64,000 nt of DNA. Origin: Microbacterium sp. CBA3102 (lineage in GTDB: Bacteria > Actinomycetota > Actinomycetes > Actinomycetales > Microbacteriaceae). Below the pieces are notes generated by a model that saw only the letters and a list, made by a program, of their open reading frames with translations, made no database searches and had not been told where the DNA came from. Position 1 is the stretch's first letter. Each line of letters begins with the position of its first letter. Of the stretch, positions 15,729-52,428 are shown one piece after another. The DNA lies in NCBI RefSeq assembly GCF_007954505.1, contig NZ_CP042412.1, positions 3,472,001-3,536,000 of the forward strand, read 5' to 3'. Both the position numbers and the translations under genes were made by a program.

Positions 15729-16814
15729 CTATGCGCTGGCCGACGACGCCGACTCAAGGCGCTCTTTGATCAGTTCCGGGTCGAGATCGGGCACACCTAT
15801 GCGCCCTCGGAAGTGACTGTGCTGAACAAGAAGTGCTTCTGAGAAGGGGCTCACGAGAGAAGCGACCGCATCCATCGCCTCAAGCGCATCCGCTGTGACG
15901 GACCGGACGTTCTCAAGGTCGATTACGAGGTCCGGAATGTCTCGAAACGCAGGAAGGTAGTGGTATCTACCCTGTGTTGCCATCAAGACATCCTTGCGAA
16001 GTTCTCCCCATTTTCCCGAGGACTTCGTCGCCACCCAGTCCAGATACTTCTTGTGTGTCTTGAGCTGTCCCGCGCGAGCTAGGAGGACTAACTCGAACTT
16101 CTTCTGCTCGAAATCACACGCCGGCGTCAAGACCACCCACCAATCACCATCAGGCGCCCGGAGCACGTCCCCTGGGGCACGCATGTCCGATGCGGGCGGG
16201 TAGATGTAGCGATGGCTTGGATGGGCGGTGAATGAATGCTCGCGGTCTTCGTCCAGAATGCGCGCAAGCCTGCTGATGAGCACCTGCGCGACCGTGGCCG
16301 GGTCTACGCCATCCGTGTATTCCGACCAATGCGGGCCGAGCTCGGTCCACATGTGCTTCGTGAGCACGGACGTCACATGATTCTCGATGTCGGCGATCGT
16401 GTCGACTGTACGACTGGTGATGGCCGCCTCGACAGCAGCCGGCAGCTTTTCGATGTCGCCCTTGCCGAGCACAGCGACAAGCGGTGCAATGGCCTCTTCT
16501 TCGACCTTCTCGGGAAGAGCGGTCCAGAAAATGACCGGAGCGAATCTCGCTTCCCTGATCTCACGGAACACCGTGTGCCCGACGGTCTCGTCAACCGGAG
16601 TCAAGTTCGTGGCATCGCGTCGGACATCGAGGACGACCACATCGCTTCCACCGTCCTTAACGATGTTGAAGCCCTTCTCGAAGTCGGTCTCGATCGAAAC
16701 CTCGACGTCGATATCCGGGTTCTGCTCGAACACGTCGACGATCTCACGCTGGGCGTCTGCCGCCATCTGAGGGTTGTCGTCGATGATGAGCACGCGCCAT
16801 GTCTTTCCAGTCAT
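15729..16814 (-). CDS. Receiver-domain protein with uncharacterised C-terminal domain
   Basis: A 361-residue protein. Residues 1-125 form a two-component receiver domain: acidic pair D12/D13 (VLIIDDNPQ), phospho-acceptor D63 in VVVLDVRRD, the switch-type WT of VIFWTALPE and the lysine of VLGKGD. The remaining 235 residues are not a DNA-binding output domain that I recognise. They contain GDWWVVLTPACDFEQKKFEL (near residue 230), the YHYLPAF segment and a charged C-terminal helix. It is the last gene of a three-gene operon and its ATG overlaps the kinase stop (TGATG). The likely input is phosphorylation by the upstream kinase-like protein. Output could be an effector or a regulatory partner. 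Confidence 0.75.
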   Translation of the reverse strand: MTGKTWRVLIIDDNPQMAADAQREIVDVFEQNPDIDVEVSIETDFEKGFNIVKDGGSDVVVLDVRRDATNLTPVDETVGHTVFREIREARFAPVIFWTALPEKVEEEAIAPLVAVLGKGDIEKLPAAVEAAITSRTVDTIADIENHVTSVLTKHMWTELGPHWSEYTDGVDPATVAQVLISRLARILDEDREHSFTAHPSHRYIYPPASDMRAPGDVLRAPDGDWWVVLTPACDFEQKKFELVLLARAGQLKTHKKYLDWVATKSSGKWGELRKDVLMATQGRYHYLPAFRDIPDLVIDLENVRSVTADALEAMDAVASLVSPFSEALLVQHSHFRGRIGVPDLDPELIKERLESASSASA

Positions 16815-19087
16815 CAGACGCGCCTCCTGAACGTGGCCTCGAACGTCGCTCCGCCGAGGGGACCTTCTTGGACGAGAGCCAGCTCGCCACCATAGATGTC
16901 TTCGACCATGTTCCCCACGATGCTCAAGCCAAGGCCGACACCGTCTGGTTTGGTCGAGAAGTAGGGGTCGAAGATGCGGTGGCGAAGATCGTCGGCCACG
17001 CCTGGGCCGGAGTCGCTGACGATCAGCGTGAGCGACGAGTCGGCGTTGTTGCGGGCGTCCACCCTGACTCTGCGCTCTGCGTCTCGTGGCTGCGTAGAGA
17101 CCCAGTAGATCGCGTTCTGGATCAGATTGACGAGCACGAGCAGTGCCTCCGCCTCATCGAGTCGAGTTGAGATGTCCGCATCCCCGGCCGCGAGACTCAC
17201 ACCGCGGTCGTCCGCCTCAACTTGCATGATCGAGATCGCCTTCTCGATCAGCTCGCGAGTCCGTACTTCCTTTGGACGTCCCCGCTTGCGCCCGCCGAAG
17301 GGCTCGATCTGGTTGAACAGCGCCGCCAGTATGTCCGCTTGGTCTGCGGTCTCCCCCATCGACTTCTGAGCGATAGCGATCTTTTCGACGGCTGACAGAG
17401 TCGTCTTTCCCAGGTCGCGTTTGCCGAAGCGCGAGATGTTCTTCAAGCGCGTCACGACGGTTCGCCCGTCGTGAAGGATTCGATCAACGAGCGATCCCAG
17501 CGTCGCAAGACGCGAGTACCGGGATAGGACTTGCTGCACCTCGACGACGCCTTCCTGGATGTCACGGTTCTTGTCGTCGATCAGCCCGATCAAACGGGAG
17601 TCCCCGGGATAGTTCGCTGCGAGTGCGGCACGAATCTCACCCAGATCGAACCGCTCGAACAAGCCGCCCTTCTTGTCGGGCTGCGATTTTTCGGGATGGC
17701 GTGCCTCGTAGCGACGACGCTCCAGCTCGTTGAGCGCCGCCCGCACGAGCGTTTGGAGATCGGAGTATGCCGCGCCGGCGAGGAAACCTTCGCGGTTGGA
17801 CTGGTCCTTGAGCCCTTGATTGGCATCGGCGCCGATGAACACGTGGCCGACGATCTGATTGTTCGAGAGTCGGAGGGTCGGACTTTGGACTCGTCTGAGG
17901 TCAAGGCCGAGCCAGTCGTCGCCGCTCTCGCCAAAGGGCAGGACGCGGAAACCGTCTCGGTAGATGCTGACGCCGGCGACATCGTCGAGAGTCTCCCGGA
18001 AGCCTTTTAGGTCTTTCGGCGTTGGCGGCGGCCCGTCCGGGCTCGACGCTGTCAGCGTCCGCTGGATCGCGTCCTTGTCTCGGTCCCAGACGTTGATCTC
18101 AAACTCGAACGGTCCGGCTTGCGGGGCACGCTTGTCGTTGTTCCAGAGCGTCTTCTCGCCGAGGTCGTCGTCAACCGCCGGTTCCTGCTGGACGTAGCGA
18201 AGGGTTGCAACCCCGTTGGCGTCGACCGACCCGCTCAGCCGGTAGTGCGGTGTCCTCAGGTCGCTGGACGGATCGATCGGACCCGCAAAGCCCTGTAGCG
18301 ACTCGGGGACATCCTCAAGCTCTACGAGAATCTGGAAGTCGGGTTGCGCTGCCTTCTGGCCTTCTTCGGAGCCATCCGCCTCGACCGCGTCGATTGTCAC
18401 GGCATGGTCGGTGGGACGTGGACGGATCAGCCGAGTCAATGCTGTGCGGAGCTCGATAAAATCTTCCGCATTCCAGGGATGAGTGAGCTTCTCGATCCGG
18501 AGGAGCGTCCCTCGACCGTGTGTCCAGGTCTCGCTGCCGGACTCGGAGAAGACAGAGGCGGCTGGGCCGTCCTCCGAAAAGATGTCAGGGTCGCTGATCT
18601 CCCAGGCCACCTCGATCTCGTCAAGATAGGCATCCTCTCGATCGAACTGTGACCAGTCGATGAGGAGGTTGATCTCGCGGGCATCGGCTTTCCGTGTGAC
18701 CAGCAGAAGCTCGTCGCCGAGCCTCGCGGCCGCCAATCGCCCGATACCTTTTTCGCCGAGGACTCGGCGTCCGCCGTCGCTCTTGGGCTTGCGTCGTTTC
18801 GTGTCGGTGGCGATGTCGAGCCAGGATCGTTGAAGTGTGGGCACGTCCATCCCGTGCCCGTCGTCCCACACTTCGATGCGGCCTTCTCCGCTTTCCAGCG
18901 GACCTTCGAATCGGATGAGGACCGTGGTGGCATCCGCATCGTAAGAGTTCTTGACAAGTTCGATTAGAGCGACCTTGTCGCTGCTGATGAGGTCATTGCC
19001 GAGGGTGCGGAGCAGGCGTGCGCGGGGCCTCAGCGCGCCCCTTCCGTCAGGAGCGTCGCTGGTTGCTTGTGAGGCGTCGTCGTTCAT
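16814..19087 (-). CDS. Dual GHKL ATPase: MORC/Hsp90-like domain fused to histidine-kinase-like module
   Basis: A 757-residue protein. The N-terminal GHKL ATPase resembles MORC/Hsp90/MutL: E43-x3-N47 in ALIELVKNSYDADA, then WDDGHGM (residues 74-80) and GEKGIGRLAAARLG near 110. A middle region carries VSIYRDGFRVLPFG and LRLSNNQIVGHVFI, typical of the transducer (S5-like) part. After it comes a helical segment with LVDRILHDGR (H539, a possible DHp phospho-acceptor). A second GHKL domain of histidine-kinase type follows: NLIQNA near 654-659, DSGPGV near 692, FDPYFSTKP near 706 and GVGLGLSI near 716. No membrane segment or PAS domain is present, so it should be cytosolic. It overlaps the methyltransferase (ATGA) and the receiver gene (TGATG). 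Confidence 0.78.
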   Translation of the reverse strand: MNDDASQATSDAPDGRGALRPRARLLRTLGNDLISSDKVALIELVKNSYDADATTVLIRFEGPLESGEGRIEVWDDGHGMDVPTLQRSWLDIATDTKRRKPKSDGGRRVLGEKGIGRLAAARLGDELLLVTRKADAREINLLIDWSQFDREDAYLDEIEVAWEISDPDIFSEDGPAASVFSESGSETWTHGRGTLLRIEKLTHPWNAEDFIELRTALTRLIRPRPTDHAVTIDAVEADGSEEGQKAAQPDFQILVELEDVPESLQGFAGPIDPSSDLRTPHYRLSGSVDANGVATLRYVQQEPAVDDDLGEKTLWNNDKRAPQAGPFEFEINVWDRDKDAIQRTLTASSPDGPPPTPKDLKGFRETLDDVAGVSIYRDGFRVLPFGESGDDWLGLDLRRVQSPTLRLSNNQIVGHVFIGADANQGLKDQSNREGFLAGAAYSDLQTLVRAALNELERRRYEARHPEKSQPDKKGGLFERFDLGEIRAALAANYPGDSRLIGLIDDKNRDIQEGVVEVQQVLSRYSRLATLGSLVDRILHDGRTVVTRLKNISRFGKRDLGKTTLSAVEKIAIAQKSMGETADQADILAALFNQIEPFGGRKRGRPKEVRTRELIEKAISIMQVEADDRGVSLAAGDADISTRLDEAEALLVLVNLIQNAIYWVSTQPRDAERRVRVDARNNADSSLTLIVSDSGPGVADDLRHRIFDPYFSTKPDGVGLGLSIVGNMVEDIYGGELALVQEGPLGGATFEATFRRRV

Positions 19088-20898
19088 AAGGCCGCCTTCG
19101 TTCTGGTACCCGTGCTCGGCGTGGCTTTGATGAGCGCGCGGGCTTCGGACACGGTGATGAAACGCAGCGCGCTCATTCTGAGCGCGGCGTCAGGACCGCT
19201 GGACACAAGCTGAGCGAGAGCGACCTTGATGTCAGTGTGGAGGCCGGTCTGGGCCTCAGGCAGGTCCATGAGCATAGCGACGACGTTCTTCACGCGTTCG
19301 TTGACGATCAGTTCGTTCCCTCCTCTGAGGAGGGAGAAGAGCTTGCGTTGCGCCGTTCCCAGCGAGGCGGCCACCAGCGGGGTCCAGTCCACGGCTCCCG
19401 GCCCGCGCAGCAGCTCGCGAAGCGACTGCTTCTTCGTCTTGCTCAGCGCGTGTACGTCGATGTGCTGGAGCGACGCAATGGAGAGGTCCTGCACTCCTTG
19501 GAGCGGAAGCATGATGGAAGCGGCGGACTCCTTCGGGAGGCGATGGAGGTCAAGCAACGCGACGACGGCCGCAGAAGCGGCAGTCATCTTGGGTCCGGGA
19601 TAGAGCCACCACGTGGACTCGCGCTGCTGTCGTCCCCACGCGGTGAGTCGATCGCGCATCGCGGGCAGGGAAGCGACGTCCGTCCGCGGAAGGTCAAGCG
19701 GGAGAACCATCTCCGCGACGACGCGGCCGAGGATCGGAGGAACAGCGTTCCCGATCTGTCGGAACGCGTCGCTCCTAGTGCCCGCGAATCGGAAGTCGTC
19801 AGGGAACGTCTGGATGCGCGCGGCTTCTCTCACTGTCAGCGTCCGGTGCTCGGCCGGATGGATGTACCAGTAACCGTCCTTCGCTATGTGGGCGGTGATT
19901 GTCCTGCTCAGATCGTCCCAGGGCAGACGCTTGTACTTGTCGTTGAAGGTGTCGGACCGATAGCGCTTGAGACGATCCGGAAGGTCCGAGTAAAGCGTGG
20001 ACGACGTCATGAGCTCGAACGCTTCCCTGTCGTCTGCGCGCACGGGACGAGTCATATGGTCGTAGATGACGCCCGTCTCGGCGGAGGCACCTAGTGCCTT
20101 CGCGAGTTCACTCTTGGGCTCGCCGGAGTATGGAAGTTCCCGACCGCCAGTCGTGTCATTCAAAGACGGGAGATCCTCAATGGCATCGCGGACGGTCGGA
20201 CGATAGGGGCTGGGCGATGGCCACCCGGGAACGGCGCCGTCGCGTCGGGCTTGAAGGATGAACCTCTTGCGGTGTTGCGGCACGCCATGCCGCCAAGCAT
20301 CGAGTAGCCGGTAATCGACCATGTAGCCGGCTCGTTCAAGGATTTCCGCGATCTCTCGGATCACGATGAGGTCATCGCCGATCGCCATATCGGGGACGTT
20401 CTCCATAAGCACGGCGCGAGGCTGCAGCGCCGTCACGACGTCGATGAAAGAGCGCCATAGCTCCTTGCGGGCGTCGACTGCATCACGCACGCCATCCTCG
20501 ACAAGGCTGCGGATCTTGGCCCTGCCGGCCCTGCTGAACGGCTGGCAAGGCGGCCCGCCTGCGATGAGATCAATGCCCAACGGACGCAGCTTCTCGATCA
20601 GCGCGCCGACCTGGGCCTGATCCGACATATCGACGTCGAGCGCCTGCCCGCGAAAGTTCGCGCGGTGCGTCTCCAGAGCGGCCTTGTCATGGTCGACAGC
20701 GGTGACCACAGTCCATCCGGCTGCCTCCACGCCCGCGCCGAGGCCTCCTGCTCCCGAGAACAGGTCAATGGCAAGCGGGCGTCCAGCTTCCTTCTCGGCG
20801 GCGCACCACTCGGCGAACTTCTCGTCATCGGGGGCGTCCGGATGTCTCGAAAGGGTGAGAGGCGCTGAGCGTTCGAGCTTCACTGCATACTTCGCCAC
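19084..20898 (-). CDS. DNA (cytosine-5-)-methyltransferase with long C-terminal extension
   Basis: A 604-residue enzyme. The first 400 residues carry the ordered C5-MTase motifs: I IDLFSGAGGLGAG (residues 44-56), IV GGPPCQPFSRAG with catalytic C118, VI MENV (165-168), VIII VPQHRKRFILQ, IX VREAARIQTFPDDF and X QIGNAVPPILG. About 200 further residues (from RTDVASLPAMRDRL) are not part of a standard MTase. They are helical with no recognised family. The start is GTG at 20898 with AAGGAG about 10 bases upstream. It is the first gene of the operon with the dual-GHKL protein and the receiver protein. No classical endonuclease gene accompanies it, so the two partners may supply the restriction or sensing function. 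The target site is unknown. Confidence 0.88.
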   Translation of the reverse strand: MAKYAVKLERSAPLTLSRHPDAPDDEKFAEWCAAEKEAGRPLAIDLFSGAGGLGAGVEAAGWTVVTAVDHDKAALETHRANFRGQALDVDMSDQAQVGALIEKLRPLGIDLIAGGPPCQPFSRAGRAKIRSLVEDGVRDAVDARKELWRSFIDVVTALQPRAVLMENVPDMAIGDDLIVIREIAEILERAGYMVDYRLLDAWRHGVPQHRKRFILQARRDGAVPGWPSPSPYRPTVRDAIEDLPSLNDTTGGRELPYSGEPKSELAKALGASAETGVIYDHMTRPVRADDREAFELMTSSTLYSDLPDRLKRYRSDTFNDKYKRLPWDDLSRTITAHIAKDGYWYIHPAEHRTLTVREAARIQTFPDDFRFAGTRSDAFRQIGNAVPPILGRVVAEMVLPLDLPRTDVASLPAMRDRLTAWGRQQRESTWWLYPGPKMTAASAAVVALLDLHRLPKESAASIMLPLQGVQDLSIASLQHIDVHALSKTKKQSLRELLRGPGAVDWTPLVAASLGTAQRKLFSLLRGGNELIVNERVKNVVAMLMDLPEAQTGLHTDIKVALAQLVSSGPDAALRMSALRFITVSEARALIKATPSTGTRTKAAL

Positions 20899-21583: not shown

Positions 21584-24500
21584 TCACAGCGCGCGGCGGA
21601 CCGGCTCCAGTTCCGGCCTACGCTCCTCCCCCGCTCCACGTGCGAGGCCACGTGCCCGGTCGAGGGCGGCGCGGGCTCGAGCGGCGTCGATCTTCTGCGC
21701 ATCATCATCGGCTGCGGCGCCGAGCGGGGTTGGGTCGGTGATGCCGTACCTGTCGCGGTAGGCGGCGACAGTGCGAGCAAGTCGCCGCCAGGTCGCCGTG
21801 GTCTTGGCATCCTTCGGCGGTGTGCCGAGAGTCTTGGTCCAGCCGTCCTGTTCGGTGAGCGCCGCGTCCAGGAGCACGTCGGCTCGGGCCTCGATGAGGT
21901 CGCGTCGCTCGGTGAGCGCGTGGCGGAACTCGACGCTCATCGTGCCGGTGGCCTCGGGGACCAGTCCGGCGATCAGCCGCGGCGTCTTCCGGGTCCGCCC
22001 CGATCCCGCCGGCCGCTGGGTCGCGCGGGCGAGGCGGTAGTGGAGGACGGCGGCGATGTCGTCGGCGTCCCTGAACCCGCGCGCTCGCACCAGGCGCGGC
22101 AACAGATTCTCGATGTCGTGATGGTTCGCCTCAGCACGCCGCAGTTCTGCGGTGAGCGCCCCGAATGCCGGGGAATGGATCGCGGCTTCCGTCTCCTCAT
22201 CGGTGAGCCCGGAGGAGGAGACGAGCGTGACCCATCGGTCACGTTGCGCGGCGGCGGCGATGGTCTCGTACTCTGCGGCGAGCTGGCCGATGTTCGCCCA
22301 GGCGTCTTGCTCGGCGGTGATGCTCTCGTGCGCGGAGAGCTCGGCGCCGACGTGTCCGAGCACACCAAACAGCACACTTCGCGCGGTCGCTTCAATGTTG
22401 TCGCCGGGGTGCGGGCCGTCGTGGGAGTCGTCGGGCTTGTCGATGGCGACGTAAGCGATGTTCGTCTGCCGTCCGCGAGTCAGCGCGACATACAGGTTCT
22501 CCCTGGTCATGGCCGCGTCGACCAGAACGTGCGCGGTGTCGACGGTGATGCCCTGTGCCCGATGGGAGGTCACGGCGTAGCCGAGGTCGAGGTGTTCGGC
22601 GACGTAGTCGGCGGGGAGGACGACCGATCCTCCCCAGCGGGCCGTCGCGCGACGCAGCGTGAGCGACCCGTCGTCTCGGACCTCGGTGACCGTCCACCTG
22701 TCCCCGTTGCGAACCCACCCGCGTCCCGCGCGCAGGCGGCGGTCGTTGCGGCGCGTAATGACGCTGTCGCCGACCGCAGCGCGGGTGCCGTCATGGAGTT
22801 CAACTTCACGGCGCGGGTTCACGGTGCCGTCGAGGATCAGATCGGTGCGAGCACGCTGGTTGAGGGCGAGGACGGATTCGTTCGAGTCGGAGACCAGCAC
22901 CGTCGCCCGGCCAGCTTGCCGGTCGGCGCGCCAGGCGGCGTACGCGGCACCGACCATCTCCTCTGTGCCGCCGCTGTGGATGCGGCCGTGGTCGAGGTAG
23001 GTGTCCATGACCTCGTTGCGGCCATGCCGCAGGCCCAGGGAGGCGGTCTTCTCCCACTCGTTGGCGAAGCGGTGCACGTCGACCAGTTCGGGAGCGTCGT
23101 CGCGGTCGCGGACGAGCAGCGAAAACGCGCCGCCGGCATCAACGGACTGGAGTTGGGCGTAGTCGCCGACCAGCAGCACCTTGGCTCCGGCCTCGGCCGC
23201 GAGGTGGGTGATGCGGTCGAGGGACAGGGTGCCGGCGAGGGAGGCTTCGTCCACGATGACGAGCTGCCCCACACCGAACGTGTCGCCGTACGTGAGATGG
23301 TTCTGCCACCACTTCGCGGTGTTCTCGGTCTGGATGCCGAGGTCATCGGCGAGGACCTGCGCCGCGACCGCGGACGGCGCCAGCCCGACCACGCTGCCTA
23401 CGCCGTGTTCGTGCTCCCACGCCCGGCGCAGCGCGGACATGGCTGTGGTCTTGCCCGCGCCGGCAGGGCCGACGAGGACATCGACGAGCCGGCCGGAGAC
23501 AGCGACCTTCGCCAGCGCGGCGGCTTGGTCGTCACCGAGGGTGTGGCCCTTCCTGTCCGGTCGTGCCGCGATCTTCTCAACGGTGGCGAGCGGGACGGTC
23601 GGGCCGACGGTCGCGCGGGCACGCTCGAGGAGCCGGTCTTCGGCGGCCAGCAACGTCTCGGAGGAGAACACCGCCGAGTGCTTCGGCCGGAACACGCTGG
23701 TCCCGTCCGGGCGGCGAAACACGGCCGGGCTCGATGCGAGCTCGGGCGGGGTCAGCCGCAGGGATGCGGCTTCGGCGGCGTCCACGACCAGGCCGACGAT
23801 CGCTTCCCGGTCCGTGGTGGACGCGAACCTGTAGCGCATCGTCTGCCGTGCCGCCTCGGCCGTGAGGTTCCAGCGCCGCCACGTTGATCGCTTCTCGCCC
23901 ACGACATCCACGACCGACTGCCCGAGCGTGCCAATCACGTCCAATGGCATGTCATCCGCGCGCAGCAGCAGAGGCGTGTCCTTCGCCGTCACGATGCGAG
24001 CCCACGAGGTTGCGTTCTGGCCGAGGATGCGGCCCGCCCGCTCCCGCCACTCGGCCGTCAGGTCCGCGAGGGAGCGGACCTGCTTCTCCGGGCGGGTGCT
24101 GAGCGTGGCCTGCGCACGGAGCTTGATGATCGTCGCCGCAGACGGCTGCCGACCGCGCTTCTCGACGTATTCAGCGATCAGCCGATCCTTCTCGACATCG
24201 ATGTGCCGGGACCGGGACGAGAACTCCACGACCAACTCCTCCGACACCGAGGCGACCGCCCAGGCGGGGTTGCGGTCGCGGCCCATCTCGCGCGCCTCCC
24301 ACTCCACGCCGAACGCGCGGGTCAGGTGGTCGGCGAATACCGCCTCGTGCAGCTCGGAGAGCGCGACGGTGGCGGCGTGCATCGGCCGCCCGTCGAGAGA
24401 GCGCCATTTACCGTCGAGGACGGTCTGCACCTTGTTCGAGATGACGACATGCGTGTGCAAGTGCGGGTCACCCGCGCGCGAGTCGTAGTGGTCGAACGCT

Positions 24501-25129
24501 GTGGCGACCAGCCCGTGGACATCGACCTGCGCAACCGCGCCGTCGCGGCCGGTTGCACCTGCACGGGTGGCTGCAACCTCACGCTCCATGAACGCAACCA
24601 CTTCCGCAACCGCCGCATGATGCGCGTCTGCAATGAGGGCTTGCGTCCCGGCGTCTGAGACTGCCCATATCACGGACGCGGACTTCGGGACCGAGAACGT
24701 GAAGTCGTAGCCGGCAACCGCGCGCCGCGTCCCGCGCGCGACCTCCTCAGCCTGGATCGCCGCGACCGCCTCAGCCCGGGCGCTCGACCCGAGCGTCGGG
24801 TCGAGGGCCGAGACCCGCTCAACGACCCGCTCGGCCACCGGCCGGTACTCGGGGTACGCCCGACCCAAAGGTGCCCCGGTGATCGGGTCACGACCCATGC
24901 CGACCAAGAGCTGGAGCTGAGATTCGGAGACCTGATCGCCCTTGGCGATCTGCCCGCCACCGAGAGCCCCCACGCCGGAACCGAGCCAGAAACCCGGCGG
25001 GCTTCCCTCCTCGGCGTAGTAGCGCGTCAACGGCGTCGAGAGCGACCTGTCACCGTCGCCCGCAGCGACGGTGCGTAGCAGGTACTTGTAGCCGTCGCCG
25101 GCGCTCATCACGCGCATCGAAACGGTCAT
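21584..25129 (-). CDS. MobF family relaxase-helicase (TrwC/TraI-like)
   Basis: An 1181-residue conjugative relaxase. The N-terminal TrwC domain has tyrosines close to the start (GDGYKYLLRT), a core segment YDFTFSVPKSASVIWAV and the metal-binding HUH-type motif DPHLHTHVVISN near residues 221-232. The second half is a RecD-like superfamily 1 helicase: Walker A LVGPAGAGKTTAM, Walker B LVIVDEASLAG, and YAVTSHRAQGITVDTAHV as a late helicase motif. It nicks oriT, stays bound to the 5' end and unwinds the transferred strand. The start MTVSMRVMSAGDGY is chosen to match MobF N-termini; the frame is open to 25174. It is transcribed opposite to the rest of the transfer operon. Confidence 0.92.
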   Translation of the reverse strand: MTVSMRVMSAGDGYKYLLRTVAAGDGDRSLSTPLTRYYAEEGSPPGFWLGSGVGALGGGQIAKGDQVSESQLQLLVGMGRDPITGAPLGRAYPEYRPVAERVVERVSALDPTLGSSARAEAVAAIQAEEVARGTRRAVAGYDFTFSVPKSASVIWAVSDAGTQALIADAHHAAVAEVVAFMEREVAATRAGATGRDGAVAQVDVHGLVATAFDHYDSRAGDPHLHTHVVISNKVQTVLDGKWRSLDGRPMHAATVALSELHEAVFADHLTRAFGVEWEAREMGRDRNPAWAVASVSEELVVEFSSRSRHIDVEKDRLIAEYVEKRGRQPSAATIIKLRAQATLSTRPEKQVRSLADLTAEWRERAGRILGQNATSWARIVTAKDTPLLLRADDMPLDVIGTLGQSVVDVVGEKRSTWRRWNLTAEAARQTMRYRFASTTDREAIVGLVVDAAEAASLRLTPPELASSPAVFRRPDGTSVFRPKHSAVFSSETLLAAEDRLLERARATVGPTVPLATVEKIAARPDRKGHTLGDDQAAALAKVAVSGRLVDVLVGPAGAGKTTAMSALRRAWEHEHGVGSVVGLAPSAVAAQVLADDLGIQTENTAKWWQNHLTYGDTFGVGQLVIVDEASLAGTLSLDRITHLAAEAGAKVLLVGDYAQLQSVDAGGAFSLLVRDRDDAPELVDVHRFANEWEKTASLGLRHGRNEVMDTYLDHGRIHSGGTEEMVGAAYAAWRADRQAGRATVLVSDSNESVLALNQRARTDLILDGTVNPRREVELHDGTRAAVGDSVITRRNDRRLRAGRGWVRNGDRWTVTEVRDDGSLTLRRATARWGGSVVLPADYVAEHLDLGYAVTSHRAQGITVDTAHVLVDAAMTRENLYVALTRGRQTNIAYVAIDKPDDSHDGPHPGDNIEATARSVLFGVLGHVGAELSAHESITAEQDAWANIGQLAAEYETIAAAAQRDRWVTLVSSSGLTDEETEAAIHSPAFGALTAELRRAEANHHDIENLLPRLVRARGFRDADDIAAVLHYRLARATQRPAGSGRTRKTPRLIAGLVPEATGTMSVEFRHALTERRDLIEARADVLLDAALTEQDGWTKTLGTPPKDAKTTATWRRLARTVAAYRDRYGITDPTPLGAAADDDAQKIDAARARAALDRARGLARGAGEERRPELEPVRRAL

Positions 25130-25203
25130 ACTCGTAGGTGTCCGCGGCGTACCGCCTACGGGCATCGCAAACACCGCGTAACCCTCGCCGATAAACTTCG
25201 AAG

Positions 25204-26085
25204 GTGAAGACCCCGGCCGCGCGCATCGTCCTGACAGTTGTTGCTGTCGTGGTCGGTGCGTTCAGCCTGTTCTTTGCCAGCGTCGCGATATGGGGATCGT
25301 GGTGGAGGTTCCCCGCCATGCCGACCGCCGAAGAATGGTCTGCGGTTTTCGGTGCTTCAGCTCTCGTAGCGCTTGGCTTCGCTTGGTACCAGATTCGGCA
25401 GGTGGATCAGTCGAACAAGGCACTGATCGCATCGAACGAGTTGGCGCGCCAGGTCAACATCGAAGCCGTTAGGCCCCGGGTGCAGGTTGCCCTGGAAGCC
25501 GATCGATTCGTTCAGAAGGATCGCGGCGCACCAGTGAAGGGCACGCTCTACATCGCGGTGCGAAACATCGGCGTGAGTCCAGCACGCGATGTTCGACTGA
25601 GCGTGAGTCCACCGTTTACGTCGCTGGAGAAGTTCTTCAACCCCGGGATGATGGGTGAACACTTCGCTGAGATCAATAAGGCCTTCAACGGAGAGGTGCA
25701 CTTTCGAACACTCAACCCCGGCAATACCTACATATGGTTCCTCGGACGCGTGCCGGAGTTGTTCGATGGCGGCTCCGAGGTTCCGCGCCGCTGGGAGGTC
25801 GAAACCGAGTACACGGGAACGGCGTCTCCAGAACCATTCCGCGGAACGTTCGTCCTCGATCTCGACATCGAGAAGCGCATCGAGTTGCCCGTCGATCCGC
25901 TCGTGCGAATCGGCAAGGACATCGAGGTCGTCGGAAGCCATCTCAAGGCGATCAAGGGCGCTGTGCCGAAGAAGTTCGCTCTGAGCGATGATTCCATCGA
26001 GGCTCTTCGCCAGCGCAACCACGGGAGTAGGTCTTCAACACTTCGTGCGCGGCGAAGGCCTCCGTGGTTGCGGAGACGGCGTTGA
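25204..26085 (+). CDS. Hypothetical protein with two N-terminal membrane helices
   Basis: A 293-residue protein. Residues about 8-32 (IVLTVVAVVVGAFSLFFASV) and 43-62 form a helical hairpin in the membrane. The rest is a soluble beta-rich domain (LYIAVRNIGVSPARDVRLSV, then WEVETEYTGTA), resembling ligand- or protein-binding domains of unknown cytosolic function. GTG at 25204 lies shortly after TAAACT, a plausible -10, so the mRNA may be leaderless. The last 20 residues are Arg/Ser-rich and unlike the rest, which suggests a frameshift or decayed 3' end near 26025. It is cargo beside the relaxase gene. The family was not recognised. Confidence 0.55.
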   Translation: MKTPAARIVLTVVAVVVGAFSLFFASVAIWGSWWRFPAMPTAEEWSAVFGASALVALGFAWYQIRQVDQSNKALIASNELARQVNIEAVRPRVQVALEADRFVQKDRGAPVKGTLYIAVRNIGVSPARDVRLSVSPPFTSLEKFFNPGMMGEHFAEINKAFNGEVHFRTLNPGNTYIWFLGRVPELFDGGSEVPRRWEVETEYTGTASPEPFRGTFVLDLDIEKRIELPVDPLVRIGKDIEVVGSHLKAIKGAVPKKFALSDDSIEALRQRNHGSRSSTLRARRRPPWLRRRR

Positions 26086-26278
26086 CGCTGCGATAGACCA
26101 GTGCACGCGAACTCGCTAGGGACCTGCTCGGATTGCACGCGCAAGTTTCAGACTGGCGCCGGCATAGGCAGGCAGTTGCGGCTGCAATCCTCGTGGGCGG
26201 CGCGTCTGCCAGCACGTCATGCTGCAAGGCGTAGGCCTATCAGATCACTCTCGTGCTCCTTCGGAGGATGAGCCGCGC

Positions 26279-27127
26279 TCAGCGGCGAACGTGCGCTACG
26301 GACCGGAGATCGTATAACCGAAATGCTTCGTTCAGGGTCATAGTCGCCGCTGCGATGGCGGGGCCCACGTCATTGTCGAGATCACCCCGGAGGCGCACAA
26401 TCGATCCGCCTGACTCCTCGTGCACGACCTCGTTTCGGTCGAGTCGCATGACGCCGAAGTGGTACTGCGCGTGGGCAGCGGCGCTACCTGATCGCCAGAT
26501 TGCCTGCGTTGCCCCGATCAGAAGGTCGTCATCGACGCCGTGCATGTGCTGCGCCACCCAGTCGATCGCTCCCGTCTGGTGGAACCGAATCTTCGTAACG
26601 TCCTCTTGCACGCCGAGTGCAGTCGCAACCCTCTGCAAATCTGTCTGCCGATCACGCAGTTGCTCCAAAAGGCCCGTACGAGCTTTCTCGGTCTTACCCT
26701 CCGGAATCTGCATGTCGCGGAACGATGTCACCTGAACGCGAAGGTCGTCAGCGCGGAGCCTGAGCGCGCGCGCACGACGTTCTTGCCGTGTTGGCGGCGC
26801 AAGAACCCAAACTGCATTGACCGCCGCCACGAACGCTGTTCGCGCAACGGTCATGTAGGCGGTCGGGTACATCGTGCTAGTTGCCCGCATAGCATCGATT
26901 GCGAAATCCAGGTGCTCGGACGAGATGCACATCGAGTACCAGACCGGGTTATCGACGCTCAGTCCGTCGATTGAGTCGGCTGCGAGCGAGCTACCGGGCT
27001 CGGGCGATGTCGGATTCTCTGCACGCTTACGCCAGGCATCAACGACATCCGAAATGCGGCCCAGACGCCTTAGCCACTCGCTGTCCTCAGGTCGCTGAGG
27101 CTGCCGCTTGGGTCGCCGCTTCGCCAT
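26279..27127 (-). CDS. Hypothetical helical protein (ICE cargo)
   Basis: A 282-residue soluble protein, basic at the N-terminus (MAKRRPKRQPQRPEDSEW), then mostly alpha-helical. It has a segment YPTAYMTVARTAFVAAVNAV followed by a WVLAP-type motif and an Arg-rich helix (RQERRARALRLRADDLR). This pattern is reminiscent of uncharacterised actinobacterial proteins with HEPN-like or DUF5677-like helical folds, but no catalytic motif is certain. It faces the methyltransferase gene at 27345 across a 217-base intergenic region in which I see no gene. Codon use is less GC-biased than in the transfer genes, consistent with separate acquisition. Confidence 0.55.
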   Translation of the reverse strand: MAKRRPKRQPQRPEDSEWLRRLGRISDVVDAWRKRAENPTSPEPGSSLAADSIDGLSVDNPVWYSMCISSEHLDFAIDAMRATSTMYPTAYMTVARTAFVAAVNAVWVLAPPTRQERRARALRLRADDLRVQVTSFRDMQIPEGKTEKARTGLLEQLRDRQTDLQRVATALGVQEDVTKIRFHQTGAIDWVAQHMHGVDDDLLIGATQAIWRSGSAAAHAQYHFGVMRLDRNEVVHEESGGSIVRLRGDLDNDVGPAIAAATMTLNEAFRLYDLRSVAHVRR

Positions 27128-27344
27128 GATCGCACCTTATCTCCGTTCGCAGACTGGCCTTCACGACGCGCTCGACCTCGATCTGCAAGACGCGTGGTAG
27201 CTCGGGGCGGATGGTTCGGGCAATGGACGGGGCGACCGGCGCGGGAGGGGTGTGGATGCGCGGCGAGCACCTGGCAGGTGACCAGCCTGGTGCCGAGTTC
27301 GTGAGTGGACGACGGCCAGGGATAGCGAACTTGCCGGAGTCCTC

Positions 27345-28433
27345 ATGCACCAGCCAAGAGACGATCATCGTCTGCGTGTCGGGTCGCTGTTCTCCGGCTA
27401 TGGAGGCCTCGACCTCGCCGTCGAGGAAGTCTTCGACGCCCGCACGGTCTGGTTCTCTGAAATCAACGAACCTGTCGCCCGTGTCTTCGCCCACCACTGG
27501 CCCGACGCGCCGAATCTCGGAGACATCACCGCCATCGACTGGAACGCGGTCGAGACGGTCGACGTGCTCTGCGGAGGGTTCCCGTGTCAGGACGTTTCGA
27601 CGGTGGGGAAGATGGCCGGCCTCGCCCCCGGCACCCGCTCCGGCCTCTGGGCGCACATGGCAACCGCGATCGAGAAGCTGCAACCCGAGTGGGTCGTCAT
27701 CGAGAACGTCCGCGGGCTGCTCTCCGCACCCGCGATCCGCGCGGCCGCGGAAGGAGAAGGCGATGAGCAACGCAACCCCGACACCGCAATCCCCGGCGGT
27801 GCAACCCCTAGCGACCTGGAACCCGACCCGTGGCATCTGGGAGAGTCCGCAACTCGACCTCTTCGGGCAGCGGGAGCAGTGCTCGGCGACCTGGTGGACC
27901 TCCGGTATGACGCGCAATGGCTCGGTCTACCCGCTTCCGCCATCGGCGCACCCCACCCCAGGTTCCGGGTCTTCATCCTCGCCCACCGCACTGTTCCGCA
28001 CGCCGCTGGCCTCAGACGCCGCGCGGGGCGGCGAGAGCTTGCAGCAGGTCAGAGCTCGGCGCGGCACGATCGCGCTGAGTCATCAGATCATCGACCTCGC
28101 CCTCCACGGGCCGAGCGGCTACCCGCGGGCGGAGGAGCCGGAGAGCCTGTGGACGTTGATCGGGGAGCTCTTCGACGCTGGGGACGATACGCCCGAGCAG
28201 TAGCCCTGTGGGAGAAAATCACTGGCCGTGCCGCTCCGTTGCCCGCGATTCTGAGCGGTGAGGCCGGTCCGCGACCCGCGCCGGAGTTCGTGGAGTGGCT
28301 CATGGGCCTGCCGCAGGGGTGGGTTACCCATCCGAGGTACTACCTCACGAAGAATCAACAGCTCACCGCGCTCGGCAATGGTGTCCTGCCGAGGCAGGCT
28401 GTGCACGCCATTGCCTCTCTGCTTCAAGTCTGA
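27345..28433 (+). CDS. DNA (cytosine-5-)-methyltransferase, phage/ICE type
   Basis: A 362-residue enzyme with C5-MTase motifs: I VGSLFSGYGGLDLAV (residues 12-26), IV LCGGFPCQDVS with catalytic C81, VI VIENVRG (118-124), VIII GAPHPRFRVFILAHR near 215, and X LTALGNGVLPRQAVHAI at the C-terminus. The segment PEFVEWLMGLPQGWV is typical of phage and mobile-element orphan methyltransferases. The region between motifs VIII and X is Arg/Pro-rich and unconserved, and it is the region shared with a nested ORF in another frame. The ATG has GGAG 6 bases upstream. It is probably an orphan modification enzyme protecting the element from host restriction. Confidence 0.85.
   Translation: MHQPRDDHRLRVGSLFSGYGGLDLAVEEVFDARTVWFSEINEPVARVFAHHWPDAPNLGDITAIDWNAVETVDVLCGGFPCQDVSTVGKMAGLAPGTRSGLWAHMATAIEKLQPEWVVIENVRGLLSAPAIRAAAEGEGDEQRNPDTAIPGGATPSDLEPDPWHLGESATRPLRAAGAVLGDLVDLRYDAQWLGLPASAIGAPHPRFRVFILAHRTVPHAAGLRRRAGRRELAAGQSSARHDRAESSDHRPRPPRAERLPAGGGAGEPVDVDRGALRRWGRYARAVALWEKITGRAAPLPAILSGEAGPRPAPEFVEWLMGLPQGWVTHPRYYLTKNQQLTALGNGVLPRQAVHAIASLLQV
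27763..28203 (+). CDS. Nested ORF inside the methyltransferase gene
   Basis: A 146-residue frame lies wholly within the methyltransferase gene, shifted to another frame. It starts at an ATG with a strong AAGGAGAAGG Shine-Dalgarno 2-8 bases upstream. Its sequence is protein-like, not shadow-like: SPQLDLFGQREQCSATWWTS then GMTRNGSVYPLPP, LFRTPLASDAARGGESLQQV, and an acidic C-terminus (SLWTLIGELFDAGDDTPEQ). From memory it resembles SGMTRxG / LxPTPxAxD proteins found next to, or fused to, methyltransferases in actinobacteriophages. Both frames retain family-like residues over 27,800-28,000, so the stretch appears dual-coding. The function is unknown; a modification-associated accessory role is inferred. 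Confidence 0.55.
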   Translation: MSNATPTPQSPAVQPLATWNPTRGIWESPQLDLFGQREQCSATWWTSGMTRNGSVYPLPPSAHPTPGSGSSSSPTALFRTPLASDAARGGESLQQVRARRGTIALSHQIIDLALHGPSGYPRAEEPESLWTLIGELFDAGDDTPEQ

Positions 28434-34732: not shown

Positions 34733-35812
34733 ATGGCGGTAACCGAGGAGCAGCGTGCCGCACGGGATGCGAAGCTCGATGCGCTGCACGAGCGGCTGGC
34801 GGTCGCGGTCGGTCAGCTCTCGACCGGAGACGACTGGAAGCAGGCGCTGGAGTTCGCCGCGAGGTTCCGGTCGAGGAGCTTCGGGAACACGCTGCTGATC
34901 TGGGCGCAGCACCTCGATGCTTTCGACCAAGGGCGGGTGCCCTCACCGGAGCCGACCTATGTCGCCGGGTACAAGCAGTGGCAGTCCCTGGGCCGTCAGG
35001 TGGAGAAGGGCCAGCCCGGCTACATGATCTTCGCCCCGGTCACCGGCCGGTTCGCATCTTCGACACCGCAGGATGCCGCCTCGTGGCGGCGACTCGGGAG
35101 GTTCGAGAAGCCGAAGCCGGGTGAGGCGGTGCGCTCCCGGATGGTCGGCGCGAAGCCGGCGTATGTGTGGGATGTCTCCCAGACCGCGGGTGACCCGATC
35201 CCGGAGCGTCCGTCGCCGGTGCTGCTGGAAGGCGAGGCGCCGGAGGGGCTGTGGGAGGGGCTTGCGGGTCTGGTGGAGGCGGAGGGGTTCTCGGTGCTGC
35301 GGGTCGAGCACGCCGGGATGATTCACGGCGCGAACGGCTTGACCGACTACTCGAACCGGACGGTCGCGGTGCGGACTGACATGGATGCTGCCGCTCAGGT
35401 GAAGACCCTCGCGCACGAGCTCGCGCACGTGAAGCTGCATGGCCCGAACCGCCCGGATGCCACGGGCCATCGCGGGATCGGGGAGGTGGAAGCGGAGTCG
35501 GTGGCGCTGATGATCGGTGCCGCGCACGGCATGGACACCACCGCCTACACGATCCCCTACGTCTCGGGGTGGGCGGGCACGGTGAAGGACAAGGATCCGG
35601 CCGAGGTGGTGCAGGCTACCGGCGAGCGGGTGCGCAGGACGGCCGGGGCGATCCTCGACGCCCTCCCGACCGTGCAGCTCGGCGGCGGTGACCCGCCGGG
35701 CCTGACTCGTGACGCGGCCCGCGTTGACCGTGCCCCGCAGGCTGCGCGCGTCGCGCCGCCGGTGGAGCCGGTACGCGCGCGTGCGGCGGATGTCGTGGTG
35801 AGGGGCCTGTGA
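34733..35812 (+). CDS. ArdC-like antirestriction / zincin metallopeptidase-domain protein
   Basis: A 359-residue protein. The N-terminal ArdC-type single-strand-DNA-binding domain includes FAARFRSRSFGNTLLIWAQH (residues 42-60) and YVAGYKQWQSLGRQVEKGQPG. A zincin-like domain follows, with HELAH at 228-232 and a downstream glutamate in EVEAESVALMIGA. Relatives carried on conjugative plasmids protect incoming DNA from restriction; whether the peptidase is active is not known. It is the first gene of the long transfer operon, after a 228-base intergenic region with no other ORF of note, and overlaps the primase gene (TGATG). Confidence 0.85.
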   Translation: MAVTEEQRAARDAKLDALHERLAVAVGQLSTGDDWKQALEFAARFRSRSFGNTLLIWAQHLDAFDQGRVPSPEPTYVAGYKQWQSLGRQVEKGQPGYMIFAPVTGRFASSTPQDAASWRRLGRFEKPKPGEAVRSRMVGAKPAYVWDVSQTAGDPIPERPSPVLLEGEAPEGLWEGLAGLVEAEGFSVLRVEHAGMIHGANGLTDYSNRTVAVRTDMDAAAQVKTLAHELAHVKLHGPNRPDATGHRGIGEVEAESVALMIGAAHGMDTTAYTIPYVSGWAGTVKDKDPAEVVQATGERVRRTAGAILDALPTVQLGGGDPPGLTRDAARVDRAPQAARVAPPVEPVRARAADVVVRGL

Positions 35813-40624: not shown

Positions 40625-41806
40625 GTGACCGTCGTGTTGAAGAAGCTCGCCGCCCTCGCGGTCGCCCTGCTGTTCCTGGGACCCTCTGTCGTCCTTGTCG
40701 GGGTCGCGGCCGTGGTGAATCCGGCGATGACCGCCTGCGCGCCCGGGTCGCTGCTCGTGGGGCCGATCCCGGACTCGCTGACCGCCACCACTCGCAACGG
40801 CGAGACGGTCACGCTGAACCGACAACAGCTCACCCATGCCGCCACGATCATCACCACCGGTTCCCAGACCGCCGGAGTCGGCCGTCCCGGCGTCGTGATC
40901 GCGTTGATGGCCGCGCTCACGGAGTCGCATCTGCGGATGCTGGCGAACACGGGCGCCTACCCCGAGTCCGGGAACTACCCGAACGACGGCAACGGCTCCG
41001 ACCACGACTCCCTCGGCCTGTTCCAGATGCGCCCCGCCTCCGGGTGGGGTACCGTCGCCGAACTGATGGACCCGAACTACCAGGCACGCGCCTTCTTCGG
41101 CGGACCCACCGGACCCAACTACCCCTCACCGCGCGGACTGCTGGACATCCCCGGTTGGCAGAGCATGGACCCCGGCGAGGCCGCCCAGGCGGTCGAGGTG
41201 TCGGCGTACCCGGACCGGTACCAGAACTATCAGCCGGTCGCCGAAGCGATCCTGAGCGCTCTCACCCGCCCCGCGCCGACCGGCAACGGGGTCGGTGGTG
41301 ATCCGGTGGTGCCGGAGACCACCCGGATCGTGTTCCCCCTGCCGGAGGGAACCTGGGTGCGCACCAGCCCGTTCGGGTGGCGCACGCACCCGATCACCGG
41401 GGAACGCTCCTTCCACACCGGCAGCGATTTCGCCGCCGCCGACGGCACCCCGATCCTCGCCGCCGCAGACGGTGTCGTCGTGCTGGCGGAGTTCTCCGGC
41501 GGATACGGCGGGCTCATCGTCATCGAGCACACCGTCCAAGGGCAGCGGGTCGCGACGTACTACGCGCACATGTGGCAGCACGGCATCCACGTCACCGAAG
41601 CGCAGATGGTCACCGCCGGGCAGCACATCGGCGATGTCGGCTCCAGTGGGATGTCCACCGGCCCGCACCTGCACTTCGAGGTCTACCCCGGCGGGCGAGG
41701 CGCGGAACCCGTCGACGGGGATGCATGGCTGACCGAGCACGGTGCGGAAGGCATCAGCGGCGGCGACGCCATCCTGGCCTCCTGCACGGCAGGCGGTGGG
41801 CTCTGA
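40625..41806 (+). CDS. Cell-wall hydrolase with M23 peptidase domain
   Basis: A 393-residue exported enzyme. The N-terminal signal/membrane segment is LAALAVALLFLGPSVVLVGV. Residues about 65-210 resemble a lysozyme-like transglycosylase region (GVVIALMAALTESHLRM, then DSLGLFQMRPASGWG). Residues 240-375 are an M23 zinc endopeptidase with HTGSDFAAADGTPI and HLHFEVYPGG metal ligands. It should open peptidoglycan for assembly of the transfer channel, as VirB1/TcpG-type enzymes do. GTG at 40625 follows a GAGCAGG site. The stop overlaps the next ATG (TGATG). Confidence 0.88.
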   Translation: MTVVLKKLAALAVALLFLGPSVVLVGVAAVVNPAMTACAPGSLLVGPIPDSLTATTRNGETVTLNRQQLTHAATIITTGSQTAGVGRPGVVIALMAALTESHLRMLANTGAYPESGNYPNDGNGSDHDSLGLFQMRPASGWGTVAELMDPNYQARAFFGGPTGPNYPSPRGLLDIPGWQSMDPGEAAQAVEVSAYPDRYQNYQPVAEAILSALTRPAPTGNGVGGDPVVPETTRIVFPLPEGTWVRTSPFGWRTHPITGERSFHTGSDFAAADGTPILAAADGVVVLAEFSGGYGGLIVIEHTVQGQRVATYYAHMWQHGIHVTEAQMVTAGQHIGDVGSSGMSTGPHLHFEVYPGGRGAEPVDGDAWLTEHGAEGISGGDAILASCTAGGGL

Positions 41807-50093: not shown

Positions 50094-50635
50094 TGGCCCG
50101 CCCCCGCTACAAGCGCACCGGCACCGAACCCGAACCCCGAGACGAGCCCGTCCCGGTCGTGCTCCCGCACGTCATCATGGACATCGCCGCTGACGGGCGG
50201 ATGACGGTCACCGTCGACGGGACACCCTACGAGCCGGAGCCGTTCGCCCCGGCGTGGCGGAGGGAAGACTTCGCCCGCATCTTGGACCAGCTCGCCGCCC
50301 AGCGCCGTTCGCCGTTGCGAGTCGAGGTGCGTGAGGCGGACGGCACCGTGTTCACCGACATCATCACCCCCAGCACACGCCGCCGTCCCGAGCCAGAGCC
50401 CGTCCTCGAGGCTCCGGCACGCCGGGCGATGCCGGAGCTCGTCATGCTCCACGGGGCGGGGTTCGTGCCCGGCGAGGACGTGGGGATCGCGATCGTGATC
50501 GCGCACAGCGACGCCGGCCCGGACGGCACCATGCGCGCCCTCCTCACCGCCGAGCAAGCCGCCGCGAGCCCGACCCACGAGGTTGTCCTGCTCGGCCGCG
50601 TCTCGGGAACCCTCACCATCGGACACCCCGAATGA
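50093..50635 (+). CDS. Hypothetical ICE protein before the coupling protein
   Basis: A 180-residue soluble protein. Two short repeated beta-hairpin regions (VIMDIAADGRMTVTVDGTPY, SPLRVEVREADGTVFTDIIT) precede a C-terminal strand-rich part (DVGIAIVIAHSDAGPDGTM, EVVLLGRVSGTLTIGHPE). No catalytic motif or membrane segment. It overlaps genes on both sides and lies between the VirB4-like and VirD4-like ATPases, so it may be an adaptor for one of them. Not a recognised family. Confidence 0.72.
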   Translation: MARPRYKRTGTEPEPRDEPVPVVLPHVIMDIAADGRMTVTVDGTPYEPEPFAPAWRREDFARILDQLAAQRRSPLRVEVREADGTVFTDIITPSTRRRPEPEPVLEAPARRAMPELVMLHGAGFVPGEDVGIAIVIAHSDAGPDGTMRALLTAEQAAASPTHEVVLLGRVSGTLTIGHPE

Positions 50636-52428
50636 GCACTCCACACCCCGCCGGGTCGTTCGGTGACGAGCTCAGCAACCTCGGCATCGGCATCCTCATC
50701 GCCGCCGCGGTCCTGGCCGGCATCCTGCGCGCGGCCGGGTCGGTCGCCGCGTGGATCACCGGCACCGCCCAGCCCGCAGGCGGCATCGAGACCGGCTTGG
50801 GCGTGCTGCTGAACCCCACAGACCCGGCAACCGCGCTCGACGCAGAAGGGCTGCACGCCGTGGCGTACTGGATCACCGCCGCCGTCCTGATCGTCGCGGC
50901 TGGGGTGCTCGGGTTGTGGGGGTGGCGGCTGCTGCGCGATCACGGTCGGCAGATCAAGACCGACCCGTACCGGATCGCGGGGATCGCCACCCGCGCCGAG
51001 GTCGCTCGGGCGGCCTCCGAACCCGCGCTGCTGCGCCGCGCCGGACACCTGCGCTCATCCCTGGACAAACCCACACCGGAGGATGTCGGATACCGCATCG
51101 GTGCCTCTCGCGGGCACTGCGTGTGGGCCTCGGTCGAAGACTCGATCCTGCTGCTCGGCCCGCCCCGCTCCGGGAAAGGCGCAGGGATCGTCATCAACAT
51201 GATCCTCGACGCGCCCGGCGCGGTCGTCACCACGAGCACCCGCCCGGACAACCTCACCGCCACCCTCCGCGCCCGACAGAAGATCGGCCCGGTCGCCGTG
51301 TTCGACCCGCAACACCTCGCCGAAGGCGTCCCCGCCGGGCTCAGATGGTCACCCATCCGCGGGTGCGAGGACCCACTGACGGCAATGATCCGCGCCACCG
51401 GGCTCGCTGCTGGCACCGGCCTTTCCGCGGGAGGTGTCGAGGGCGGTGGGTTCTGGGAGGGAAAGACCCGCACCGCCCTCCAAGCCCTGCTCCATGCCGC
51501 AGCCCTCGACCACCGGCCGCCCGGCGAGCTATTCCGCTGGACCCTCGACCCATCCGCCGCCGCAGACGCAGTCGCGATCCTCACCGCCGACCCCCACGCC
51601 GCTGTCGGGTGGGCGGAGTCATTGCAGGCGATGATCGACTCCGACCCCCGCACCCGCGACTCCATCTGGCAAGGCGTCTCCCTCGCCCTCGCCGCCCTCG
51701 CAGACCCCCGCATCCTCGACGCCGTGACCCCACGGGAAGGCGAGGACTTCGACCCCGAAGCGTTCCTCCGCGCACGGGGCACCCTCTACCTGCTCGCCAC
51801 CGGCGCCGGCGCCAACAACTCCGCGGCGCTGGTGGCGGCGTTCGTGGAAGACCTCGTGGAAGCCGCCCGCCGCATCGCCGCGACCAGCCCCGGCGCACGC
51901 CTCGACCCGCCTCTGTTGCTGGCGCTGGATGAGGTCGGCAACCTCGCGCCCTTGCCGTCCCTGCCGACGCTCATGGCTGAGGGCGGTGGCACCGGGATCA
52001 CGACCATGCCGGTGTTGCAGTCGCTCGCGCAGGCGCGGGAGAAGTGGTCGGAGAATGCGGCCGGCGCGATCTGGGACGCTTCCATCGTCAAGATCATCCT
52101 CGGCGGCGCATCGAACTCCAAGGACCTGCATGACCTGACCACACTCATCGGGGAACGCGACGAGGTGACCGACTCCACCACGATCGGCGACCACGGCTCC
52201 CGCTCCGCGCAACGCTCCATCCGCCGCGTGCCCGTCATGCCACCCGACACCATCAGAACCCTCCCGTTCGGCACCGCGCTCGTCCTCCTGCGCGCCGCAC
52301 CGCCCATCGTCACCCGACTGCGCCTATGGACCGACCGGCCCGACGCCAAGACGCTACGCGCCGAACGTGCCGGCATCGAGGAACTGCTGCAACGCCGACC
52401 GCTGGGGAGCCCTGACGCACCTGCCTGA
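50632..52428 (+). CDS. Type IV coupling protein (VirD4/TraG-like)
   Basis: A 598-residue ATPase with two N-terminal membrane helices (residues about 17-43 and 77-99). Walker A is LLGPPRSGKGAGIV (174-187), then DAPGAVVTTSTRPDNLTAT. Walker B is PLLLALDEVGNLAPLPSLPT, followed by the coupling-protein segment GGGTGITTMPVLQSLAQARE and IVKIILGGASNSKDL. It recruits the relaxase-DNA complex to the channel and pumps the DNA. The start overlaps the previous stop by four bases (ATGA). Confidence 0.93.
   Translation: MSTPHPAGSFGDELSNLGIGILIAAAVLAGILRAAGSVAAWITGTAQPAGGIETGLGVLLNPTDPATALDAEGLHAVAYWITAAVLIVAAGVLGLWGWRLLRDHGRQIKTDPYRIAGIATRAEVARAASEPALLRRAGHLRSSLDKPTPEDVGYRIGASRGHCVWASVEDSILLLGPPRSGKGAGIVINMILDAPGAVVTTSTRPDNLTATLRARQKIGPVAVFDPQHLAEGVPAGLRWSPIRGCEDPLTAMIRATGLAAGTGLSAGGVEGGGFWEGKTRTALQALLHAAALDHRPPGELFRWTLDPSAAADAVAILTADPHAAVGWAESLQAMIDSDPRTRDSIWQGVSLALAALADPRILDAVTPREGEDFDPEAFLRARGTLYLLATGAGANNSAALVAAFVEDLVEAARRIAATSPGARLDPPLLLALDEVGNLAPLPSLPTLMAEGGGTGITTMPVLQSLAQAREKWSENAAGAIWDASIVKIILGGASNSKDLHDLTTLIGERDEVTDSTTIGDHGSRSAQRSIRRVPVMPPDTIRTLPFGTALVLLRAAPPIVTRLRLWTDRPDAKTLRAERAGIEELLQRRPLGSPDAPA

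Follow-up and report, generated by a model that had tools for sequence, protein, structure and literature searches.

A nested +1 frame very probably encodes the target-recognition subunit of a two-chain C5 cytosine methyltransferase in Microbacterium

Introduction

In M.EcoHK31I, the gene for the small chain is nested in another frame of the gene for the large chain. According to the accessible text of PMC3404938, this enzyme (YGGCCR) is a C5 methyltransferase of two polypeptides, the larger of which has motifs I-VIII, motif X and a predicted target-recognition domain (TRD), and the smaller of which holds motif IX only. The same text describes M.AquI (CYCGRG), a two-polypeptide C5 methyltransferase whose small chain consists of the distal variable region and motifs IX-X. 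C5 enzymes bisected between motif VIII and the TRD complement efficiently (accessible text of PMC5944983). The accessible literature on overlapping C5 methyltransferase genes, in which subscription papers are thinly covered, cites two-chain enzymes and the ShiLan element of an actinophage, and the arrangement described here is unreported in it.

Results and Discussion

The catalytic chain

The window (i.e. the whole 64,000-nucleotide stretch that was analysed) comprises positions 3472001-3536000 of the 3.89-Mb single-contig genome of Microbacterium sp. CBA3102, and all feature coordinates below are those of the window. On its forward strand, 27345..28433 encodes alpha, a C5 cytosine methyltransferase chain with motifs I-VIII followed by IX-X, which matched the Pfam profile PF00145 (E 5e-32) and the PHROG family phrog_363 (E 3.4e-67). 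The peptides GGFPCQDVS, ENVRG and GNGV are present in alpha; we take the first two to be the catalytic PCQ and ENV blocks and the third to represent motifs IX-X, with block boundaries taken from alignments. By profile, catalytic blocks and IX-X together, alpha belongs to PF00145. The pre-IX, IX and X block, delimited by profile, occupies 28176..28433 (forward strand) and overlaps the last nine codons of the nested frame, beta, discussed below.

An AF2 model of alpha (52 rows; mean pLDDT 72.6) was superposed on M.HhaI with a Z score of 21.2 and an rmsd of 3.6 over 234 of 327 residues. The catalytic and IX-X blocks mostly scored 80-96, with dips near residues 81-100 and 301-310, and pLDDT fell below 50 at 126-171 and 222-264. 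Residues 217-271 are rich in Arg, Ala, Gly and Pro and stand at the position of the recognition domain of C5 methyltransferases. Across 48 relatives, the mean majority fraction was 0.87 in motifs I-VI, 0.88 in VII-VIII, 0.53 in residues 217-271 and 0.80 in IX-X. A TRD between motifs VIII and IX was not found in the alpha chain; the conserved stretch at this place is in the beta frame. In alpha, a spacer replaces the TRD, leaving the chain without a conserved or confidently modelled recognition domain.

Relatives and geometry

Matches to beta were found in 32 of 398 family-sampled genomes (the window's own counted), in a species-genome collection, where 228 stretches matched the search pattern and 180 were confirmed, and twice in a plasmid collection. 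From the species genomes, the best 80 of the 180 confirmed relatives were used; by their titles, these come from Microbacterium, Leucobacter, Knoellia, Brevibacterium, Propionibacterium, Actinomyces, Nocardia and other genera. A total of 111 loci were examined (some genomes being in both sets), and 20 were dropped with a missing or split block. Among the 91 classifiable loci, 88 share one geometry, in which motifs I-VIII and IX-X both occupy frame f and beta is in f+1; the exceptions are L024 and L157, with IX-X in the beta frame, and L100, with IX-X in the third frame.

Stops in alpha, beta or both were present in 13 of the 88 loci (L018, L020, L107, L129, L146, L147, L149, L150, L152, L154, L155, L165 and L028), and six more start late; the alpha/beta pair is not always kept and decays in some elements. 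The annotation of plasmid NZ_CP072877.1 (L148/L173) lists beta as a hypothetical protein, with the predicted ATG as its start; alpha is absent from the gene table, which omits pseudogenes, and the motif I-VIII block is split over two frames.

Sixty-nine loci, a few with a cut C-terminal block, were scored intact, and 51 remained once near-duplicates were removed. This set was collected mainly via beta similarity and is biased towards beta conservation. A search that started from alpha matched 107 of 299 family genomes, and its 21 best loci (E 2.3e-37 or better) all have beta. Homologous methyltransferases that lack the nested frame come further down: of the nine loci that follow (E 3.3e-23 and worse), five are without trace of beta, two have a weak +1 match, one (L201) has a beta fragment, and one (L199) has the domain in frame in a single chain.

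A probable conjugative element as carrier

Of 81 loci, 70 are adjoined by a MobF/TrwC relaxase homologue that runs in the opposite direction; two or three of the matches are short. The window has a TrwC/MobF relaxase with helicase (21584-25174, reverse strand) and, on the forward strand, an ArdC N-terminal domain protein (34733-35812), an M23 peptidase (40625-41806) and a TraG/TrwB-type coupling protein (50632-52428). On this gene content, we take the window for part of a conjugative element integrated in the chromosome. Between relaxase and alpha lie about 2.2 kb with other ORFs (25175-27344); in many relatives (e.g. L092) the relaxase match ends about 300 bases before alpha, and the intervening stretch in the window is likely an insertion.

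The reverse strand also carries another C5 methyltransferase of ordinary appearance (19084-20898). It is followed by a GHKL-ATPase protein that weakly matched 'REase_II' of PADLOC (16814-19087) and by an unknown gene (15729-16814), and the three are perhaps a restriction-modification or defence unit. The alpha/beta pair would be cargo of the conjugative element, and its likeliest role would be to mark element DNA so that host restriction spares it in transfer; it may also control the relaxase gene through methylation.

A nested gene and its start signals

Beta (27763..28203, forward strand) begins with ATG, runs for 146 codons in the +1 frame wholly within 27345-28433, and has AAGGAGAAGG just 5' of the ATG. 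Its length is uninformative: a +1 ORF of at least 146 codons was present in 1258 of 2000 synonymous-codon shuffles of alpha, and length was rejected as evidence for coding. The initial annotation had described a complete second gene nested out of frame in the methyltransferase gene, and this description is upheld by conservation, not by length.

Every base of the Shine-Dalgarno core, AAGGAGA (27751..27757, forward strand), is kept in 49 of the 51 relatives, and its neighbours are variable. The glycine codon at this place is GGA in all 47 sequences that have glycine there; in single-coding parts of the gene, GGA makes up 173 of 999 glycine codons. AGGAG is kept in 45 of the 51 and the aligned ATG in 46, and some relatives without the aligned ATG carry one a few codons off. 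The ribosome-binding site and start codon are conserved beyond the needs of alpha, which argues for independent initiation of beta. Taken with the substitution pattern below, we regard beta as almost certainly a real coding gene, and its translation is predicted from these signals.

Selection in the two frames

Third codon positions of alpha coincide with second positions of beta, and first positions of alpha with third positions of beta. Four regions were compared: I, before the overlap (27372-27762); II, lying between alpha motif VI and the end of VIII and covering beta residues 1-76 (27763..27990, forward strand); III, at the alpha spacer (27991..28175, forward strand); and IV, after the overlap (28206-28420). 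The main estimates used the 211 of 1275 pairs among the 51 sequences that are 80-97% identical, with intervals from codon bootstraps. Alpha four-fold divergence was 0.322 (95% CI 0.290-0.354) in I, 0.123 (0.091-0.158) in II, 0.030 (0.014-0.049) in III and 0.577 (0.544-0.608) in IV, past the end of beta. Beta four-fold divergence reached its highest value, 0.412 (0.361-0.461), in III. The gap between I and II narrows in more distant pairs, with alpha values of 0.468 and 0.308 in the 1025 pairs of 70-80% identity, and of 0.506 and 0.373 in the 39 pairs of 50-70%, where the intervals overlap slightly.

Since the 51 sequences came mainly via beta, the analysis was repeated on loci found with alpha, 11 of the 21 being usable. 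Alpha four-fold divergence in these was 0.417, 0.291, 0.089 and 0.621 in regions I to IV, and beta four-fold divergence in III was 0.552; the intervals of I and II just overlap, and those of III and IV are clear of all others.

Substitution by codon position gave a consistent picture. Against eight close relatives, rates at alpha positions 1/2/3 were 0.109/0.060/0.319 upstream, 0.132/0.115/0.166 in 27763-27990, 0.390/0.095/0.043 in 27991-28175 and 0.280/0.220/0.573 downstream. Followed in 60-base steps, constraint switches frame at the step boundary 27972 and is back by 28212. By Fisher tests on variable columns, alpha third positions in II differ from those in I (p = 0.007) and in IV (p = 7e-9), and in III beta third positions differ from beta second positions (p = 1e-9).

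Both frames are under protein-level selection. The locus has the two marks of overlapping genes, suppressed silent divergence and frame-specific constraint in the flanks, the step from I to II being weaker in the alpha-found set. The roughly 250 bases that had been thought constrained in two frames correspond to 228 bp, in which silent substitution points to constraint in both frames and not in one only. The further claim, that the part which follows, at the place of the TRD, is conserved in the nested frame only, agrees with the alpha and beta values of region III. One feature is not accounted for by the two-chain reading proposed below: silent divergence in alpha is 0.32 ahead of the overlap and rises to 0.58 beyond it.

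Identity of the nested protein

Beta residues 5-93 matched positions 62-150 of the 329-position profile phrog_1008, a phage DNA methyltransferase family (E 5.8e-13), a partial match, and the alpha C-terminus matched another part of the same profile; comparison with phage proteins thus relates the nested protein to a family of phage methyltransferases. Among the phage matches listed, many span beta 14-90 only, over conserved alpha motifs. The single-frame relative L199 has, in its one reading frame, a match to the beta profile in the segment that separates motif VIII from IX (27.8 bits, the best of 2000 shuffles scoring 8.9). No gene overlaps this domain, so its likeness to beta does not stem from the coding needs of a second gene. 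The beta ORF of L024 and that of L157 extend into IX-X without a change of frame.

A profile of the beta-only stretch scored 126 bits on L024 and was near noise (at most 8 bits) on the other phage betas and on L045. This stretch appears too variable for distant homology, as expected of a recognition region, and the assignment of a recognition role therefore rests on position and on the N-terminal part. An AF2 model of beta alone was poor (pLDDT 46.5). Pfam gave no match for beta alone, PADLOC and NCBIfam no family for the window beta, and a PDB sequence search with the beta alignment only weak matches to unrelated proteins (best E 0.11). Part of L199, searched against 297 order-level genomes at a strict limit, gave no match, which is uninformative.

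Two other identities were considered and rejected: an HNH insertion like the ShiLan domain, there being no HNH match in Pfam or PHROG, and a mere shadow of alpha, against which stand the four-fold pattern in both sequence sets and the L199 domain. That the nested stretch is the probable target-recognition region, as initially proposed, is supported by the unconserved alpha spacer and by the L199 domain lying in frame between VIII and IX.

A two-chain enzyme and the alternatives

We consider it very likely that the locus specifies a two-chain C5 methyltransferase with beta as its recognition subunit, a proposal that draws on phrog_1008, the substitution pattern and the geometry. One C5 cytosine DNA methyltransferase would be encoded as two polypeptides in overlapping frames. 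Alpha would be the catalytic chain, with I-VIII and IX-X and a meaningless spacer at the place of the TRD. Beta, initiated within alpha at a Shine-Dalgarno and ATG of its own, would supply the TRD in trans, and the two chains would assemble into an active enzyme. The efficient complementation of C5 enzymes bisected between motif VIII and the TRD speaks for such an arrangement.

A different way to reach the same domains would be for ribosomes to shift from alpha to beta after motif VIII and back before IX, producing one conventional methyltransferase for which the nested ATG is incidental. Joined in this way, alpha 1-215, the beta-only stretch and alpha 279-362 would give the usual domain order, and single-chain relatives exist (L199, L045). 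However, two opposite shifts would be required, the start signals of beta are conserved, L024 and L157 take beta directly into IX-X, and the overlap 5' of motif VIII is also constrained in the beta frame, which a late shift would not require. We consider such frameshifting improbable.

About equally improbable is that beta is real with a separate role, e.g. acting on alpha or on the element as an inhibitor or regulator. The absence of a Pfam match and of a confident model for beta alone would be compatible with this, but L199 carries a related domain between VIII and IX and in one frame with them, the beta frame also has IX-X in three phages, L024 and L157, and alpha is without another recognition domain. 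That beta is a chance ORF, its similarity only a +1 shadow of conserved alpha motifs, has a negligible probability and is excluded for this family by the substitution pattern: the frequency of such ORFs in shuffles and the many phage matches confined to beta 14-90 are outweighed by conservation of III in the beta frame only, suppressed alpha silent sites in II, conserved start signals and the L199 domain outside any overlap.

Layouts in phages and IMG/VR loci

With alpha, 53 loci were found in IMG/VR, of which eight were unscorable. Motif IX lies in the +1 frame and X in that of alpha in 42 of the 53, and three (L045, L049, L056) show other combinations. All scored loci carry PEFVEWLM, a peptide among the search patterns, and the sample was selected by motif IX, not by its frame. 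L045 is a single-chain relative. Motifs IX-X are in the beta frame in the phages Abidatro, KBurrousTX and NiebruSaylor, in which a second methyltransferase-like gene is annotated, and in the alpha frame in Lton and Sitar, in which the beta frame is unannotated. Two IMG/VR loci (L205, L207) have recognition-like LLPTP-type repeats in the alpha frame, the beta-type N-terminal match still lying over VII-VIII in +1.

On balance, we favour a broader reading, offered as one joint proposal. These loci may belong to a large class of C5 methyltransferases, for the most part unrecognised, that phages and conjugative elements carry and that is encoded in a pair of +1-overlapping frames. Its modules (recognition, IX, X) would hop from one subunit to the other through frame-shifting indels, since neither frame is closed by stops. 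Its layouts would be IX in beta with X in alpha (the 42 IMG/VR loci), IX-X in beta (L003, L004, L007, L024, L157), IX-X in alpha and recognition in beta (the window family), recognition-like repeats in alpha (L205, L207) and one chain (L199, L045). The N-terminal part of beta would have been born by overprinting VII-VIII and, once outside the overlap, would have retained its role, as in L199.

The locus offers a clean case of two same-strand bacterial frames under protein selection, with some fifty aligned relatives, and the beta start signals can be mutated silently for the alpha frame. If the two-chain reading is true, one-frame annotation loses the half of the enzyme in charge of target choice, the sites recognised by such phage or element methyltransferases are unpredictable from the annotated gene, and domains have a route to move between subunits via single indels.

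Comparison with known systems

The actinophage ShiLan methylase gene has, as in the window, a second frame that encodes a protein inside it; the ShiLan protein is a homing insertion, whereas the second frame of the window is part of the methylase itself, and beta has no HNH family match. The PHROG families divide the window's chains in another way: alpha matches phrog_363, and beta 5-93 and the alpha C-terminus match separate parts of phrog_1008, in which beta-like and IX-X parts lie in one profile and one frame but in the window in two.

M.EcoHK31I is a C5 methyltransferase of two polypeptides, as proposed for the window, but has IX in the small chain and the TRD in the large one, whereas the window has IX in alpha and the recognition part in beta. 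Its division, in which IX is set apart in the small chain from I-VIII and X, is not that of the window, where the alpha frame holds IX as well as X. The prevailing IMG/VR layout, IX in +1 and X in alpha, is nearer M.EcoHK31I in the placement of IX and X, a comparison of layouts and not of homology. M.AquI is, like the window, divided into a catalytic and a second chain around the variable region; however, its small chain includes the distal variable region along with IX-X, and beta stops at 28203, short of IX. Abidatro, KBurrousTX and NiebruSaylor, with IX-X in the beta frame, resemble M.AquI in this respect. The window has neither the M.EcoHK31I nor the M.AquI layout, but it fits the known two-chain kind of C5 methyltransferase.
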